Position numbers and translations under genes: made by a program. A model generated the notes under the pieces. The model was not told the DNA's origin, searched no databases, and saw only the letters and a list, made by a program, of their open reading frames with translations. This document shows, in pieces, positions 4,004 through 27,253 of a stretch of 33,492 nucleotides of DNA. Numbering within the stretch: the stretch's first letter is position 1; the number at the start of each line of letters is the position of its first letter. The stretch is from NCBI GenBank assembly GCA_903939515.1, contig CAJAHH010000099.1, positions 1-33,492 of the forward strand. The letters run 5' to 3'. The DNA comes from an uncultured Verrucomicrobiota bacterium (GTDB lineage: Bacteria > Verrucomicrobiota > Verrucomicrobiia > Limisphaerales > UBA9464).

Positions 4004-4459
4004 TTAGAAGTCCAAGGCCACGCTGTCGGCCGCGACGGCTGCTTCGAGACAGCGACGAGCCCGCACCAAATCGGACGAGTGCTTCGGGGTTTCAGGCTGG
4101 GAGGACGCCGGAGTTGCCCACAATTGAGATAACGTTTCGATCAGCGCTGCGGCATGAACCCGGCGGAAACGACGAAGAACTCGAGCCTCAGGTGCATCGC
4201 CCGAGCACAAATACCGAAAGTCGTCCTCGTTTCGGCAGGCTTCTTCAATTTCTTCAGAAGCAAACCGGCCACCCGAGTAAGCATGAACCAAAACACTGGC
4301 CAGCATCCGAGTCGCAAAGAAACTGCCTCCCGCCTCAGCCCGAAACCCGAGAGCGGGCCACCCGACGGCACCGACGGCGTCGAAGACCTGTCGCAACCGG
4401 TCTCCCTCCGGGAAGCGTGCGTCTGTATCACGCCGGCTCGAATCAGGACTCAAGTTCAT
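4004..4459 (-). CDS. Stand-alone transposase N-terminal-domain (DUF772-like) protein
   Basis: The protein has 151 residues from the preferred ATG at 4459 (MNLSPDSSRR); the frame is open up to 4543. The middle segment (LASVLVHAYSGGR, then RNEDDFRYLCSGDAPEARVLRRFRR) resembles the N-terminal domain of IS5/IS1182-type transposases. That domain normally reads 'few residues, Tyr-rich helix, ...FRYL.G...PD..T..RFR'. The catalytic DDE domain that should follow is absent, and the protein ends in a Ser/Pro-rich linker and an Ala-rich tail. No terminal inverted repeats or target duplications are visible. It may be a domesticated DNA-binding protein or a decayed element. Its codon use looks like that of neighbouring genes. 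It is divergent from metH across a 221-bp gap. Confidence 0.65.
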   Translation of the reverse strand: MNLSPDSSRRDTDARFPEGDRLRQVFDAVGAVGWPALGFRAEAGGSFFATRMLASVLVHAYSGGRFASEEIEEACRNEDDFRYLCSGDAPEARVLRRFRRVHAAALIETLSQLWATPASSQPETPKHSSDLVRARRCLEAAVAADSVALDF

Positions 4460-4614
4460 TGATAAACGTTTGACCCGGGATGTGACAGTCCGATGACGAC
4501 CCCGCAACAACGACGTCAGGACTCCCAGGGTAAAGAATTCCACCCCGTGCGAGCCGCGCCCCGCTTCGCCTGCAAATCCGCCGCAGCGTCTGCGTCTGTA
4601 CGCTAAAAATACAT

Positions 4615-4638
4615 ATCAACGAATCGGGATGCGTTGAT
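4615..4638 (+). promoter_or_regulatory. Inverted repeat in the metH leader
   Basis: A 7-bp inverted repeat (ATCAACG at 4615-4621, CGTTGAT at 4632-4638) with a 10-nt spacer lies about 45 bp before the metH start, in the gap shared with a divergent gene. It could be an operator or a leader hairpin. I could not match the leader to a known SAM, SAH or cobalamin riboswitch. Confidence 0.3.
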
Positions 4639-4680
4639 TTATCTGTTGGCACCCTGCCAGAGGGAGGATAACCTGAGTCC

Positions 4681-7600
4681 ATGTCGAATCGTTCCGAAGC
4701 TCGGAATACATGGACGCGTGGTCAGGGATTTGTGGACCTGCTGGATCAGCGCATTGCCATCATTGATGGAGCAATGGGAACTGTCATCCAGCGTTACAAG
4801 CTGGGCGAGGCCCAGTTCCGAGGCGAACGGTTCAGCGATTGGAAGGGGAAGGACCTCAAGGGTAACAACGAGTTGCTCCAAATCACCCAACCGCAGGTCA
4901 TCGAAGAAATCCACCGGCACTATTTAGAGGCCGGGGCCGACCTCATCGAAACCAACACGTTTTCGGCCACCACCATCGGCCAGCACGACTTTTTCTTTCG
5001 TCATGCCGAGGGCCGCAAAGATCAGGCGTTCTTCAATGATGTGATCCAAGATCCGTTCCTGCGCGACCTGGCGCGGGAAATGAATCTGACTTCGGCCCGA
5101 CTGGCCCGGAATGCGGTCGATACGGTGTTCAAAGCCACGGGCATCCCCCGGTATGTTGCCGGGGCCATTGGACCGATGCCGGTCACCACCTCGATCTCTC
5201 CGGATGTCAACGATGCCGGATTCCGGTCCGTGAGTTTTGAGCAATTGGTCACGGCCTACACCGAACAGGTGGAGGCGCTCATCGAAGGGGGCGTGGATGT
5301 CCTGTTAGTAGAAACCATCTTCGACACGCTCAACGCCAAGGCCGCGCTCTTGGCCATCCAGCAAGTGCAAGATCGCTTGCAAGTCCGACTGCCGTTGATG
5401 ATCTCGGGCACGATCACTGACCTGTCTGGCCGCACGCTGACGGGGCAAACGGTCGAAGCCTTCTGGAACTCGGTCCGCCACGCCGAGCCGATCACCATCG
5501 GATTTAACTGCGCCCTCGGTCCCAAAGAAATGCGGGCCTACGTCCAGGAACTCCACCGCATCGCCGATACCAAAATTTGCGTGTATCCCAATGCCGGATT
5601 GCCCGACCCGTTGTCCCCGACGGGTTTCCCGGAAACACCGGAGACCCTCGCTCCTCAAATCCGTCCTTGGGCCGAAGAAGGTTGGCTGAACGTCGTGGGC
5701 GGTTGCTGTGGCACGACCCCGCCGCACATCCAGGCCATCGCTGAGGCGGTGAAGGGCCTACCGCCGCGGAAGACCCCTCAACTCCCACCGCTTCTGCGCC
5801 TCAGTGGCATGGAAGCCTTCAACCAAACCCGTGAGACCAACTTCATCAACATTGGCGAGCGTGCCAATGTCACGGGCTCACCGAAATTCTCCAAACTCAT
5901 CTTGGCCGGTGACTACGATGCCGCGTTGGCGATTTGCAAACAGCAGGTCGAGGCGGGGGCCCAGATCATCGATATCAACATGGACGAGGGAATGCTCGAC
6001 GGCGCTGCGGCGATGTCGAAGTTCCTCAATTTGATCGCTGCCGAACCCGACATCGCTCGGGTGCCGATCATGGTCGATTCGTCGAAGTGGTCGGTGCTGG
6101 AGACGGGCCTGCGTTGCCTCCAAGGCAAGGGCATCGTCAATTCCATTTCGCTCAAAGAAGGCGAAGAGCGCTTCCTTGAACAGGCCCGACTCATTCGTCG
6201 CTATGGCGCGGCGGTCGTGGTGATGGCCTTTGATGAGCAGGGACAGGCCGATTCCTTTGCGCGCCGCATCGAGATTTGCCAACGGTGTTATGACCTGCTC
6301 ACCCAGCGCGCACAGTTCCCGCCGCAGGACATTATTTTCGATCCGAACATCCTCACCGTCGCCACCGGGATCGAGGTTCACAATAACTACGCCGTCGACT
6401 TCATCGAGGCGACTCGATGGATTAAGACCCACTTGCCCTTCGCCAAGGTCAGCGGCGGCGTCTCCAACATCAGCTTTAGTTTCCGGGGCAACAACCATGT
6501 TCGGGAGGCGATGCACAGTGCCTTCCTCTTCCACGCCATTCAGGCCGGGCTCGACATGGGCATCGTCAATGCCGGGATGCTCGAAGTGTACGAGGAGATC
6601 GAGCCGGAGCTTCGGGACCTCGTGGAGGATGTGCTCCTCAATCGCCGTCCGGACTCCACTGAGCGTTTGGTGACCTATGGCGAGGCGCTGCGTCGTAAAT
6701 CGGGACCTGGGGGCACCGCCGAAGCCAAAGCCGACGAGGCCTGGCGATCGGAACCCGTTGAAAAGCGCTTGGCGCACGCCCTAGTCAAGGGCATCGACGC
6801 CTTCGTGGAACTCGACACCGAAGAAGCCCGCCAAAAGCTTGGGCGACCGCTGTTGGTCATCGAGGGGCCCCTCATGGACGGGATGAACCACGTCGGCGAC
6901 CTTTTTGGCGCTGGCAAAATGTTTCTCCCGCAAGTGGTGAAGTCTGCCCGAGTGATGAAGAAATCGGTCGCCTACCTCACTCCGTTCATGGAAGCCGAGA
7001 AGGCGGCTGCGGTGGCCGGCGGCTGCGAAGTTCGAACCCAAGGCAAAGTGCTCATGGCCACCGTCAAGGGCGATGTCCACGACATCGGCAAGAACATCGT
7101 CGGGGTGGTTTTGGGGTGCAATAATTACGAGGTCATCGACCTGGGCGTCATGGTGTCCTGCGAGAATATTCTCAAGGCGGCTCAGGAGCATCAGGTGGAC
7201 GTCATCGGTCTCAGCGGCTTAATCACTCCGTCGCTCGATGAGATGGCCCACGTCGCCCGCGAAATGGAACGCCTGGGCATGCGCCAACCCCTTCTCATCG
7301 GTGGTGCCACGACCAGCAAAGCGCACACCGCCATCAAGCTCGCGCCGGGATATTCGCAGCCCGTCATCCACGTGTTGGATGCCAGCCGCGCTGTGCCGGT
7401 GGTGAGCAACCTCATTAACCCGGACTTGAAGCCCGCCTACGTGGCTCAAATCCGCGAGGAGTACCAAGTCCTTCGGAGCAGCCATGCCGCGGCCAATACG
7501 CCGCTGCTGAGTTTGGAACAGGCTCGCAGTCAAGCCGCCCGGTTCGACTTCTCGGACCTGCCTCACCCAGAATTCACCGGAATCCGCGTCTTGGAAGACG

Positions 7601-8481
7601 TTCCGCTCGAAACGCTCCGGCCCTACATTGACTGGTCTCCGTTCTTCCACACTTGGGAACTGCGCGGGCGCTACCCGGCCATTTTGCAGCATGAGAAGTA
7701 TGGCGAAGAGGCCCAAAAACTCTTCGCCGATGCGCAAGCGCTGCTCGATGACTTGATCGCCCGAAAGCGCATCCGAGCCTGCGGAGTGTATGGAATTTTT
7801 CCGGCCAATCGCGATGGAGACTCCGTGCAAGTCTTCACCGACGAATCCCGCTCCAGCGTTCAAACCACCTTCCACATGCTGCGTCAGCAAGTGGTCAAAG
7901 AAGATGGAACACCCCAGTGGTCGTTGGCCGACTTTGTGGCTCCCAAGGGATCCCAAGACCATGTCGGCGGCTTCGCGGTCACCACCGGCATCGGACTGGA
8001 CGAAGTGGTGGCTGCCTACAAAGCCGGGCACGACGATTACAACGCCATCATGGCCGAGGCCTTGGCCGACCGCCTGGCCGAAGCCTTTGCCGAGTACTTG
8101 CACCAACGGGTCCGCAAGGAGTGGGGCTTCGGTGCTCAAGAACAACTGAGCGCCGAAGACCTTCTCGAAGAACGCTACCGAGGGATCCGGCCCGCCGGAG
8201 GCTATCCGGCCAGCCCCGACCACACCGAGAAACGGACACTGTGGTCACTCCTCGATGTGGAGGAGCGTACTGGCATCCGACTCACGGAGAGCTGCGCCAT
8301 GTGGCCCGGCAGCAGCGTCAGTGGACTTTATTTTGCTCACCCCCAGTCTAAGTACTTTGGAGTGGGCAAGCTCGGGCGCGATCAAGTCGCCGATCTGGCT
8401 CGCCGGAAGTCTGTTCCCGTGACCGAGATGGAGCGTTGGTTAGGACCCTGGCTCGCCTACGATTCGTCTCGTGAATCTTGA
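4681..8481 (+). CDS. metH: Cobalamin-dependent methionine synthase
   Basis: This transfers a methyl group from 5-methyltetrahydrofolate via methylcobalamin to homocysteine, in the cytosol. It has 1266 residues, slightly longer than the E. coli enzyme, with all modules present. The homocysteine domain (about 15-350) has zinc ligands Cys277, Cys342 and Cys343. The pterin-binding domain (about 385-660) starts with [11 protein letters not shown]. The B12 cap and Rossmann domains (about 690-930) carry the DxHxxG motif (Asp798, His800, Gly803), where His800 is the lower cobalt ligand. The C-terminal AdoMet reactivation domain (about 950-1266) has the [15 protein letters not shown] motif. An in-frame TAA at 4669 rules out an earlier start. 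The AGGGAGG sequence lies about 13 nt before ATG, a rather long spacing. Methionine synthesis here therefore depends on B12. Confidence 0.98.
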
Positions 8482-25198: not shown

Positions 25199-25789
25199 AT
25201 GCATCCCTCCCGACAGTTCCATCATTGCCCGCGCTGCGGAAAACCCATCACCCCGCCAGAAAACGGGGCTCCGATGAAGTGCGCCGCCTGCAAATTCCAA
25301 TTGTACTTCAATCCTGCGGTGGCGGTTGCTGTCTTCATCCAACGGGACGATGGGAGCATCTTGTTAATCCGGCGTGCGAACGATCCAGGAGCGGGGCTCC
25401 TGGCCCCTCCCGGCGGGTTTATTAATATGGGCGAGTGCGCCGAGTCCGCGGTGCATCGAGAGATTTTCGAGGAAGTAGGCATCCGACTTTTTGACCTACG
25501 ATTCCTCTGTTCTCAGCCCAACGAATACCTTTTCGACGGGGTGACCTACCCAGTGCTAGACCTCTTTTTCACAGCTCAACCTCTGGAGACCGAGGGCCCT
25601 TGCAATCCGGAAGAGGTTCATGCCGTGGAATGGCATCCGGCCAATACTCTGCAAGGTGAGGCGCTGGCCTTTCAGTCGATGCGGGCCGCCTGGCAGGTCT
25701 GGCTTGAAGCCGATGCAAAAATCAGTAAGCCCCCGGGCGATGGTGCGACCTCACTCAGCCCCAGTTCTTCGGATCGGCTCAACGGGTAA
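25199..25789 (+). CDS. NUDIX hydrolase with N-terminal zinc ribbon
   Basis: The 196-residue protein starts at ATG 25199 (MHPSRQFHHCPRCG). The frame is open from 25085, but that part has no similarity and overlaps the divergent hemL promoter. Cys10/Cys13 and Cys28/Cys31 form a zinc ribbon like that of NudC-type or NADH-pyrophosphatase-like proteins. The Nudix box runs from about 72 to 94 (GGFINMGEC, then REIFEEVGI). It should hydrolyse a nucleoside diphosphate linked to another moiety; the substrate is not determined. It stands 43 bp upstream of a second NUDIX-containing gene on the same strand and may be cotranscribed with it and folB. Confidence 0.88.
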   Translation: MHPSRQFHHCPRCGKPITPPENGAPMKCAACKFQLYFNPAVAVAVFIQRDDGSILLIRRANDPGAGLLAPPGGFINMGECAESAVHREIFEEVGIRLFDLRFLCSQPNEYLFDGVTYPVLDLFFTAQPLETEGPCNPEEVHAVEWHPANTLQGEALAFQSMRAAWQVWLEADAKISKPPGDGATSLSPSSSDRLNG

Positions 25790-25832: not shown

Positions 25833-26891
25833 GTGATTCGCAATGTGATCTTCGATTGGTCTGGGACGCTGGTGGATGACCTTCCGGCCGTCTGGCGGGC
25901 ATCGAACCATGCGCTGCAACAGGCTGGAGTGCCGGAGATGGCTCTGGAGGACTTTCGGCGAGAGTTTCGTCTCCCTGCTCGGGACTTCTACATGGAACGG
26001 GTACCGAAGGAATCGCTTCCTGAATTAGAGGGTTGGTTTTTGGAGGGATTCAAGCGGGTCCAAGACACGGTCACACCCTTGCCGCATGCTCGGGAATTTC
26101 TGGAGTTTTGTCGGCAGCATGGGCTACGGACCTTTCTCCTCAGTGCGGTGCATCCGGCCTTGTTTGCTCACCAAGAAAAAAGCTCAGGATTTGGTCCGTT
26201 CTTCGACAAGACCTACCTCGGTGCCCACGACAAAAAAGACCTCATCGGACAAATCCTTCGGGATAACGAACTGGACCCAACTCAAACCGTGTTCATTGGC
26301 GACATGCAGCACGACATCGAAACCGCCCACCACGGAGGAGTGAAGTCAGTCGCAGTCCTGACCGGGTACGATAGCCTCGATAAACTGCGCGCGTCCAAGC
26401 CCCACCTGATTGTCGAGCACCTGTCTGAACTCCGCCGGCACTTGGAAGCCAATCAATTATGCTTGAATCCGGGTCCCGCGCCGCGTTCGGCGTTTCCGAT
26501 TCCGACCGTCGGGGCTCTCATTCGAGACGATTCGGGCCGCATGCTTTTGTTCAAGACGGCCAAGTGGTCCGGCATGTGGGGAATTCCCGGCGGAAAGATC
26601 GAATGGGGTGAACCCTCTGAGGAGGCTCTTCGACGCGAGGTTCGTGAAGAGACTGGCCTGGAAATCGATCAAATCCAGTTCGTGATGGTCCAAGACTCGA
26701 TCGCCTCCACCGAGTTTTACCGGGAGGCCCATTTCATCCTACTCAACTACACCTGCCTCGCCCTGCCTGGCCAGTCGGTGACCTTGAATGAAGAGGCTCA
26801 AGAATTCGCCTGGGTCCATTGGGAACAAGCCTTCGAACTCCCTCTCAACACTCCCACCCGACGATTACTGGAAATGGTTCGGGCTCTCTGA
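25833..26891 (+). CDS. Fused HAD-like phosphatase and NUDIX hydrolase
   Basis: The 352-residue protein starts with GTG 25833 (MIRNVIFDWSGTLVDD). Residues 1-205 are a HAD-superfamily hydrolase with a helical cap. Motif I is DWSGT, with nucleophile Asp8 but Ser10 where most phosphatases have the second Asp. The second motif Ser is in LLSAV (104), the motif III Lys is in the KKDLIG region (134-135), and motif IV is GDMQHD (156-161). Residues 222-350 are a NUDIX domain, with its box at 253-276 (GGKIEWGEPSEEALRREV, then REETGL). It precedes folB by 14 bp. The fusion could catalyse pyrophosphate removal and dephosphorylation of one substrate. A role before FolB is inferred, not proven. Confidence 0.85.
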   Translation: MIRNVIFDWSGTLVDDLPAVWRASNHALQQAGVPEMALEDFRREFRLPARDFYMERVPKESLPELEGWFLEGFKRVQDTVTPLPHAREFLEFCRQHGLRTFLLSAVHPALFAHQEKSSGFGPFFDKTYLGAHDKKDLIGQILRDNELDPTQTVFIGDMQHDIETAHHGGVKSVAVLTGYDSLDKLRASKPHLIVEHLSELRRHLEANQLCLNPGPAPRSAFPIPTVGALIRDDSGRMLLFKTAKWSGMWGIPGGKIEWGEPSEEALRREVREETGLEIDQIQFVMVQDSIASTEFYREAHFILLNYTCLALPGQSVTLNEEAQEFAWVHWEQAFELPLNTPTRRLLEMVRAL

Positions 26892-26905
26892 GTACACCTC
26901 TTTTT

Positions 26906-27253
26906 ATGGACATCATCACAATTGAAGACCTTGAGGTCTGTTACCACATCGGCGTTCCGGACGAAGAACGGGTCCATCCCCAGCGCCTGCTCATCAGTGT
27001 GAAAATGGACACCGACTTCACCTTGGCCGCTGCGGGTGATGACCTGAGTCACACCATCAATTATTACGCTGTCAGCCAACGGTTGCTTAGCCTCGGCCAG
27101 GGCAGGACGTGGAAGCTGCTGGAAACGTTGGCCGTCGATATTTCTGAATTGGTTCTCCGCGAATTTGGAGCCCGTCGGGTCCACGTCGAAATTAAGAAAT
27201 TCATCATCCCGGAAGCCCGCCACGTCTCGGTTCAGATCATTCGGCCTCAGTGA
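26906..27253 (+). CDS. folB: Dihydroneopterin aldolase
   Basis: This cleaves dihydroneopterin to 6-hydroxymethyl-dihydropterin and glycolaldehyde in folate synthesis. It has 115 residues from ATG 26906 (MDIITIEDLEVCYHIGVPDEER), the normal size. Conserved points include the GVPDEER loop with the active-site Glu, the LLETLA helix, and VEIKKFIIPEA with the catalytic Lys. It starts 14 bp after the HAD-NUDIX fusion gene, so translation is likely coupled. Folate from this pathway also supplies the methyl-tetrahydrofolate used by MetH. Confidence 0.95.
   Translation: MDIITIEDLEVCYHIGVPDEERVHPQRLLISVKMDTDFTLAAAGDDLSHTINYYAVSQRLLSLGQGRTWKLLETLAVDISELVLREFGARRVHVEIKKFIIPEARHVSVQIIRPQ

Follow-up and report, generated by a model that had tools for sequence, protein, structure and literature searches.

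The locus described here raises the question of whether a single protein could carry out both hydrolytic reactions that folate synthesis needs between GTP cyclohydrolase and the dihydroneopterin aldolase FolB. In the window, the whole 33,492-nucleotide stretch of uncultured Verrucomicrobiota DNA that we analysed, a gene encoding a HAD domain joined to a NUDIX domain lies directly before folB, and the initial annotation had put this fusion forward for the two missing reactions before dihydroneopterin. Its candidacy is supported by a near-fixed linkage to FolB and by proteins in which the domains are fused in frame with FolB.

A HAD-NUDIX fusion gene lies directly upstream of folB

The features of this part of the window are the following.

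25199 to 25789, plus strand: further NUDIX gene, stand-alone, ending 43 bp before the fusion, with N-terminal zinc-ribbon-like cysteines
25833 to 26891, plus strand: HAD-NUDIX fusion gene (P0001), open reading frame and translation, GTG start, 352 amino acids
25833 to 26447, plus strand: HAD domain, residues 1-205, Pfam HAD_2, phosphoglycolate-phosphatase-like fold with a helical cap
25854 to 25868, plus strand: HAD motif I, D8-W9-S10-G11-T12, with the Ser codon (25860-25862) at the place of the second Asp of phosphatases
26232 to 26234, plus strand: HAD motif III lysine, K134
26298 to 26315, plus strand: HAD motif IV, GDMQHD, residues 156-161
26496 to 26888, plus strand: NUDIX domain, residues 222-352, PF00293
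26592 to 26660, plus strand: Nudix box, residues 254-276, with catalytic Glu and Arg
26892 to 26905, no strand: spacer of 14 bp from the fusion stop codon to the folB ATG
26906 to 27253, plus strand: folB (P0003), dihydroneopterin aldolase, 115 amino acids, ATG at 26906, stop codon ending at 27253; PF02152, TIGR00525
27376 to 27585: infA, downstream of folB

A Pfam scan of P0001 recognised both domains, with HAD_2 spanning residues 5-175 (E 6.8e-19) and NUDIX spanning residues 224-345 (E 1.9e-23; 83.4 bits for PF00293 against a cut-off of 21.1), as the initial annotation had said in describing one protein with a HAD and a NUDIX domain; its placing of the gene 14 bp before folB was equally exact. 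The GTG start fits the family, since residues M1 and I2 are near-invariant in an alignment of 63 fusions, and an AlphaFold model of the fusion protein, built with 62 relatives, has a mean pLDDT of 91.3 and a pTM of 0.76. The fusion is a genuine gene and no assembly artefact, because relatives occur in all 80 kept loci of a genome-collection scan (the best 80 of 160 matches, one of which, L088, ends at a contig end) and in 92 of 116 genomes of the host's order (counting a fragment in G258 that ends at query residue 295).

The folB product matches PF02152 at 3.7e-26 (92.3 bits) and stands barely over the TIGR00525 FolB equivalog cut-off (73.6 versus 72.15 bits); family model and catalytic residues alike place it in FolB. 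Those residues, which we take to be E21, Y53, E73 and K98, are found in 96, 96, 95 and 94 of 96 HAD-linked FolBs respectively, the remainder being gaps. The Lys is followed by Phe in 86 of these 96 sequences, and by Pro in every one of the 30 further phylum FolBs used for comparison (the 30 best-scoring). The stand-alone NUDIX gene upstream of the fusion resembles part of NAD diphosphatase and, among the 80 loci of the collection, is present at 14, in near relatives only (L010-L014, L016-L022, L024 and L025).

Folate genes of the host genome

The genome to which the window belongs is 95.9% complete and encodes FolE2 (4.2e-96), FolK (3.0e-27) and a member of the FolP family (Pterin_bind, 7.6e-87). 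A search for FolE, made in this genome only, gave no match, and with FolE2 present we rejected FolE as the first enzyme; FolE2 was found in 101 of the 116 genomes of the order. A 1266-residue open reading frame holding a pterin-binding domain, at 4681-8481 of the window on the plus strand, is presumably a cobalamin-dependent methionine synthase. The sole PTPS of the genome carries the sequence CARLHGH, which has the form CxxxHGH and not ExxHGH, the former being given as the QueD motif and the latter as the motif of the folate bypass in PMC5041015. A bypass of FolB by PTPS-III is not indicated by this single PTPS with its QueD-type motif.

The fusion is linked to FolB across the order

The 116 genomes of the host's order, probably Limisphaerales, were searched both with the fusion protein and with FolB. 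In 88 of the 92 genomes with the fusion, FolB lay downstream on the same contig and strand, within 500 bp in 87 of the 92 and within 150 bp in 79. The initial annotation had suggested a survey for the fusion beside folate genes and would have taken a usual position far from them as a refutation; the proximity seen in 87 fusions, together with three in-frame fusions with FolB (below), contradicts such a position. The four fusions that were not linked are those of G332 and G329, near contig ends, the cut fragment of G258, in whose genome FolB was not found, and that of G241, where FolB is on another contig and none was found within the 10 kb fetched around the fusion.

The order also held 14 matches to the HAD domain only, nine adjoining FolB and five not; the tally had been 16, with ten next to FolB, before we set aside G351 (residues 141-299, next to FolB), a fusion cut by the contig start, and G277 (residues 1-35), a scrap. 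FolB was not found in the HAD-only genomes G300, G318 and G345, the HAD of G284 is a second copy with an internal stop, and in G268 FolB is on another contig. In G243 and G294 FolB occurs with no match to the fusion protein; in G262 a fragment of FolB is present and the HAD is not.

In the collection, FolB lay downstream of the fusion in 71 of the 80 loci (one in fusion, 69 no more than 500 bp past the stop codon and one at 1454 bp). At five of the nine loci without it the DNA ends within 800 bp, and real exceptions are L030, L041, L061 and L077, where no FolB was found in about 6 kb of downstream DNA. At L091 (G178) the fusion has no FolB within 1.5 kb. In family f4 the HAD lies away from FolB (L102, L112-L114 and L195; also L189 and L190), the HAD gene of L190 having an ABC-3 transport gene on one side and a gene of the Lysine_decarbox family on the other.

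As a control, we examined 52 phylum HADs from the similarity class that comes next, and none lay within 500 bp of FolB; they were chosen among the matches listed, from genomes for which a FolB match was listed too, and FolB linkage across the phylum was read from the loci. When neighbouring genes were clustered by BLAST, FolB was the commonest neighbour (41 of 67 loci), followed by a cluster of minus-strand frames from 27 loci, 24 of 29 overlapping folB in antisense; the remaining clusters reached at most 13 of the 67 loci, and no folate family was found among the other neighbour clusters scanned. A constant partner beyond FolB was rejected, as the neighbours of the HAD vary by lineage (the Lysine_decarbox family, ABC transport, DUF2306, HisA, MlaD, TPR, DnaJ and exonuclease VII). 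Gene order thus argues for a strong pathway link between the fusion and FolB.

HAD and FolB domains are joined in frame

Three genomes, each from a different family, encode HAD, NUDIX and FolB as a single open frame, giving proteins of 520 (L185), 516 (L186) and 528 amino acids (L187, the same as L086), the last on a 4.9-Mb chromosome. A HAD domain joined to FolB in one frame, with NUDIX absent, was found at 19 loci, all of the kinship family f3 in the same class. The f3 loci with this two-domain arrangement are L096-L101, L103-L110 and L115-L119. In a tree of 103 HAD domains the HAD-FolB proteins group with two HAD-NUDIX proteins of the same family (support 99/90), so that the NUDIX domain was probably lost in the HAD-FolB lineage, and the three triple fusions fall separately (three changes); long branches (L194, L118, L111 and L185) blur the fine placement in this tree, whose bootstrap had not fully settled. 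Since the tie between HAD and FolB persists without NUDIX, the HAD domain probably acts at the step directly before FolB.

The HAD domain has an altered motif I

The initial annotation spoke of a HAD phosphatase domain, a description that stands for the superfamily and falls short for the phosphatase signature. The HAD motifs are all present, with D8, S/T104, K134 and D161 each in 110 of 110 aligned sequences and D157 in 109 of 110 (K134 was also invariant, 63/63, in the aligned fusions). The DxDxT signature of HAD phosphatases, with its second Asp in motif I, is absent from the fusion's HAD domain: motif I reads DWSGT at 141 of 143 HAD loci, DWCGT at two and DWDGT at none, putting Ser or Cys at this place in 143/143 loci, of which three (L001, L002 and L090) duplicate the gene in the window and among which the collection loci overlap in species with loci of the other genomes surveyed and are not independent of them.

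The second Asp of motif I is described as the general acid/base of HAD phosphatases in PMC6321591 and PMC12715507. A HAD domain that does without it may use another proton donor, may rely on substrate assistance or may have a phosphoanhydride as its target, and the domain would accordingly be either a phosphatase with an altered proton donor or an enzyme for a better leaving group. By VIA-align the HAD half gave Z 26.1 to 2ah5 (204 residues, rmsd 2.0), the same score to 3mc1, and 24.7 to the A. aeolicus phosphoglycolate phosphatase 2nyv.

Motif I was also read in the 20 next-nearest Verrucomicrobiota HADs that were fetched (17 from other classes and three from the same class, taken from the 52 controls). 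It was DWNGT in 18, DFNGT in one and DLDGT in one, the L219 sequence being read by eye, with its second match, DWNGT, taken and the first found spurious. With Asn at the place of the second Asp in 19 of the 20, the folate-linked HADs would seem to come from, or to lie next to, a wider Asp-less lineage. A broader set of Verrucomicrobiota HADs with Asn for the second motif I Asp is found at L204-L223 and L224-L231; four proteins of this set were scanned against NCBIfam and none fell in a named family, and the neighbours that were scanned are unrelated.

The NUDIX domain has a stand-alone homologue among pterin genes

The Nudix box GX5EX7REUXEEXGU is complete in the window protein, which marks the domain as a NUDIX hydrolase; G254, E260, R268, E269, E272 and E273 are each present in 63 of 63 aligned fusions, and the last Gly of the box, G275, in 19 of 63. 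The best PDB sequence matches of the domain are the MutT/NUDIX protein 4dyw and NudI; it also matches 'Nudix hydrolase 1' (6dby, 3.4e-9), the Arabidopsis dihydroneopterin triphosphate diphosphatase. The VIA-align list was taken up by HAD-domain matches, and the structural matches of the NUDIX half were drawn from Foldseek, which returned NudI and MutT-type proteins (for example NudI 6dt3).

Against the NudB equivalog model NF006961 the domain scored 27.9 bits, far under the cut-off of 103 bits, and the best match to this model in the window's genome was the fusion itself (2.9e-6). The cut-off was passed in none of 240 genomes of the phylum, yet in only one of 14 control genomes; it thus reflects resemblance to a particular sort of NudB rather more than it does function, and the check on coexistence with a clear NudB that the initial annotation proposed has no power here.

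In one genome of another class, G189, a stand-alone NUDIX homologue shares 46% identity with the fusion's domain over 130 residues. When searched back against the 240 phylum genomes (E <= 1e-12), it found itself and the six fusion proteins of the sample and nothing else. Its position is as follows.

L232, 5059 to 5520, minus strand: stand-alone NUDIX homologue, flanked by QueE and dihydropteroate-synthase-like genes

The QueE gene scored 285.9 bits, just under its cut-off of 300, and the gene overlapping the NUDIX gene has dihydropteroate synthase as its best NCBIfam match (90.3 bits against a cut-off of 162.6). Also listed at L232 are 4280-5098 and 5666-6319, both on the minus strand, and a further NUDIX gene lies beyond the dihydropteroate-synthase-like gene. 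No HAD or FolB of the fusion kind was found in the 10.5 kb around the G189 NUDIX gene, and the locus, in this one genome, gives the NUDIX half a tie to pterin genes that does not depend on FolB.

Proposed function and alternatives

We consider it likely that the NUDIX and HAD domains jointly perform the two hydrolytic steps between GTP cyclohydrolase (here FolE2) and FolB, and we are surer still that the fusion has its place somewhere in this branch of the pathway. The C-terminal NUDIX domain would convert 7,8-dihydroneopterin triphosphate to the monophosphate and pyrophosphate; the N-terminal HAD domain would remove the last phosphate through an aspartyl-phosphate on D8, releasing dihydroneopterin; and FolB, adjacent or in the same chain, would convert this to 6-hydroxymethyl-dihydropterin. 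We infer the substrates of the two domains and their order of action from their sequences and gene context. Points that weigh against this reading are the absent second Asp of motif I, the low NudB score, the sub-threshold match of the dihydropteroate-synthase-like neighbour in G189 and the genomes and loci in which fusion or HAD and FolB are not found together.

The chief rival reading has the HAD domain cleaving pyrophosphate or another anhydride: the NUDIX domain would make the monophosphate, the HAD domain would cleave a phosphoanhydride (most simply the pyrophosphate that NUDIX releases, or a terminal phosphate of the pterin triphosphate) and a general phosphatase would finish. A phosphoanhydride offers a good leaving group and a general acid is unneeded, a chemistry that a Ser or Cys in motif I would fit; a HAD pyrophosphatase of B. 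thetaiotaomicron, 3qu2, is among the structural neighbours (Z 22.4), and the model for the pyrophosphatase PpaX matches the HAD domain weakly (4.1e-7). We nevertheless hold this to be unlikely, as phosphoglycolate-phosphatase-like structures score higher and as the HAD adjoins or is fused to FolB in lineages that have no NUDIX domain, where it would be removing pyrophosphate without a local partner.

It is more doubtful that the FolB of this branch itself cleaves dihydroneopterin phosphate, leaving the HAD domain to dephosphorylate the two-carbon product or to serve mainly as a scaffold. All four catalytic residues are retained in the linked FolB, which argues against such a change of substrate. 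The linked FolB is nonetheless divergent, as the Phe that usually follows its Lys, where the others compared have Pro, indicates, and an annotation table of PMC5041015 lists an aldolase for the monophosphate. A scaffold would be hard to square with the near-invariant nucleophile, Lys and metal Asp of the HAD domain, which bespeak a working enzyme. Slightly less probable again is a general house-cleaning enzyme, a nucleotide NUDIX joined to a phosphoglycolate-type HAD and beside folB by history alone, for although the top sequence and fold matches (MutT/NudI and phosphoglycolate phosphatases) are both broad groups, such an enzyme would not account for the triple and double fusions with FolB, for a FolB linkage that endures in many families of the order amid changing neighbours, for the lack of any such linkage in the 52 control HADs or for the NUDIX homologue of another class that also lies among pterin genes.

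If the two domains do act in succession before FolB, the HAD domain could be the first phosphatase of bacterial folate synthesis that is dedicated to dihydroneopterin monophosphate and genetically linked, part of a wider, uncharacterised Asn/Ser/Cys HAD lineage that dephosphorylates without the second Asp, and HAD-NUDIX-FolB would be a three-step protein in some genomes; for this fuller claim we see the chances as evenly balanced.

Relation to known systems and significance

The HAD domain resembles the phosphoglycolate-phosphatase-like enzymes of HAD subfamily IA in fold (Z up to 26) and in motifs II-IV, and differs from them in the Ser or Cys that replaces the second motif I Asp at every one of the 143 loci. 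The D[W/F]NGT HADs of Verrucomicrobiota, its next-nearest relatives in the phylum, share the loss of this Asp (19/20), but are unfused in the stretches read, have unrelated neighbours and do not lie beside FolB. Phosphonoacetaldehyde hydrolase, also a HAD enzyme with a helical cap (Z about 21), has a motif I that likewise lacks the second Asp; it differs in its chemistry and has no pathway link here.

The NUDIX domain is comparable to FolQ/NudB of L. lactis, E. coli and Arabidopsis as a NUDIX hydrolase at the same presumed step and with the full set of Nudix Glu and Arg residues, the similarity being weak (27.9 bits with the NudB model); unlike them, the fusion falls below the NudB cut-off, is joined to a HAD domain and is linked to folB. 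Parachlamydia belongs to a phylum related to Verrucomicrobiota. For strain UWE25, Table 2 of PMC1971073 enters fused FolQ and FolB proteins, with a footnote that gives no fusion partners. This reported fusion concerns the same steps as ours, and differs, as far as the table entry goes, in that no HAD phosphatase domain is mentioned there.

The phosphatase acting before FolB was held in 2007 to be a non-specific enzyme (PMC1971073), and in the pterin-route figure of a 2026 review of bacterial pterins a phosphatase is still labelled 'unidentified' (PMC13259868). Riboflavin synthesis has had a comparable unknown phosphatase, for which an Aquifex enzyme was reported in 2025 (PMC12051542). In the open-access literature, a scope that leaves aside preprints and most subscription papers, we found no report of a HAD domain fused with FolB or genetically linked to it. 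A phosphatase fold joined to a diphosphatase and to FolB would make the missing phosphatase step addressable with one purified protein, and it raises the mechanistic question of how a HAD enzyme can function with Ser, Cys or Asn at the position of the Asp that serves phosphatases.
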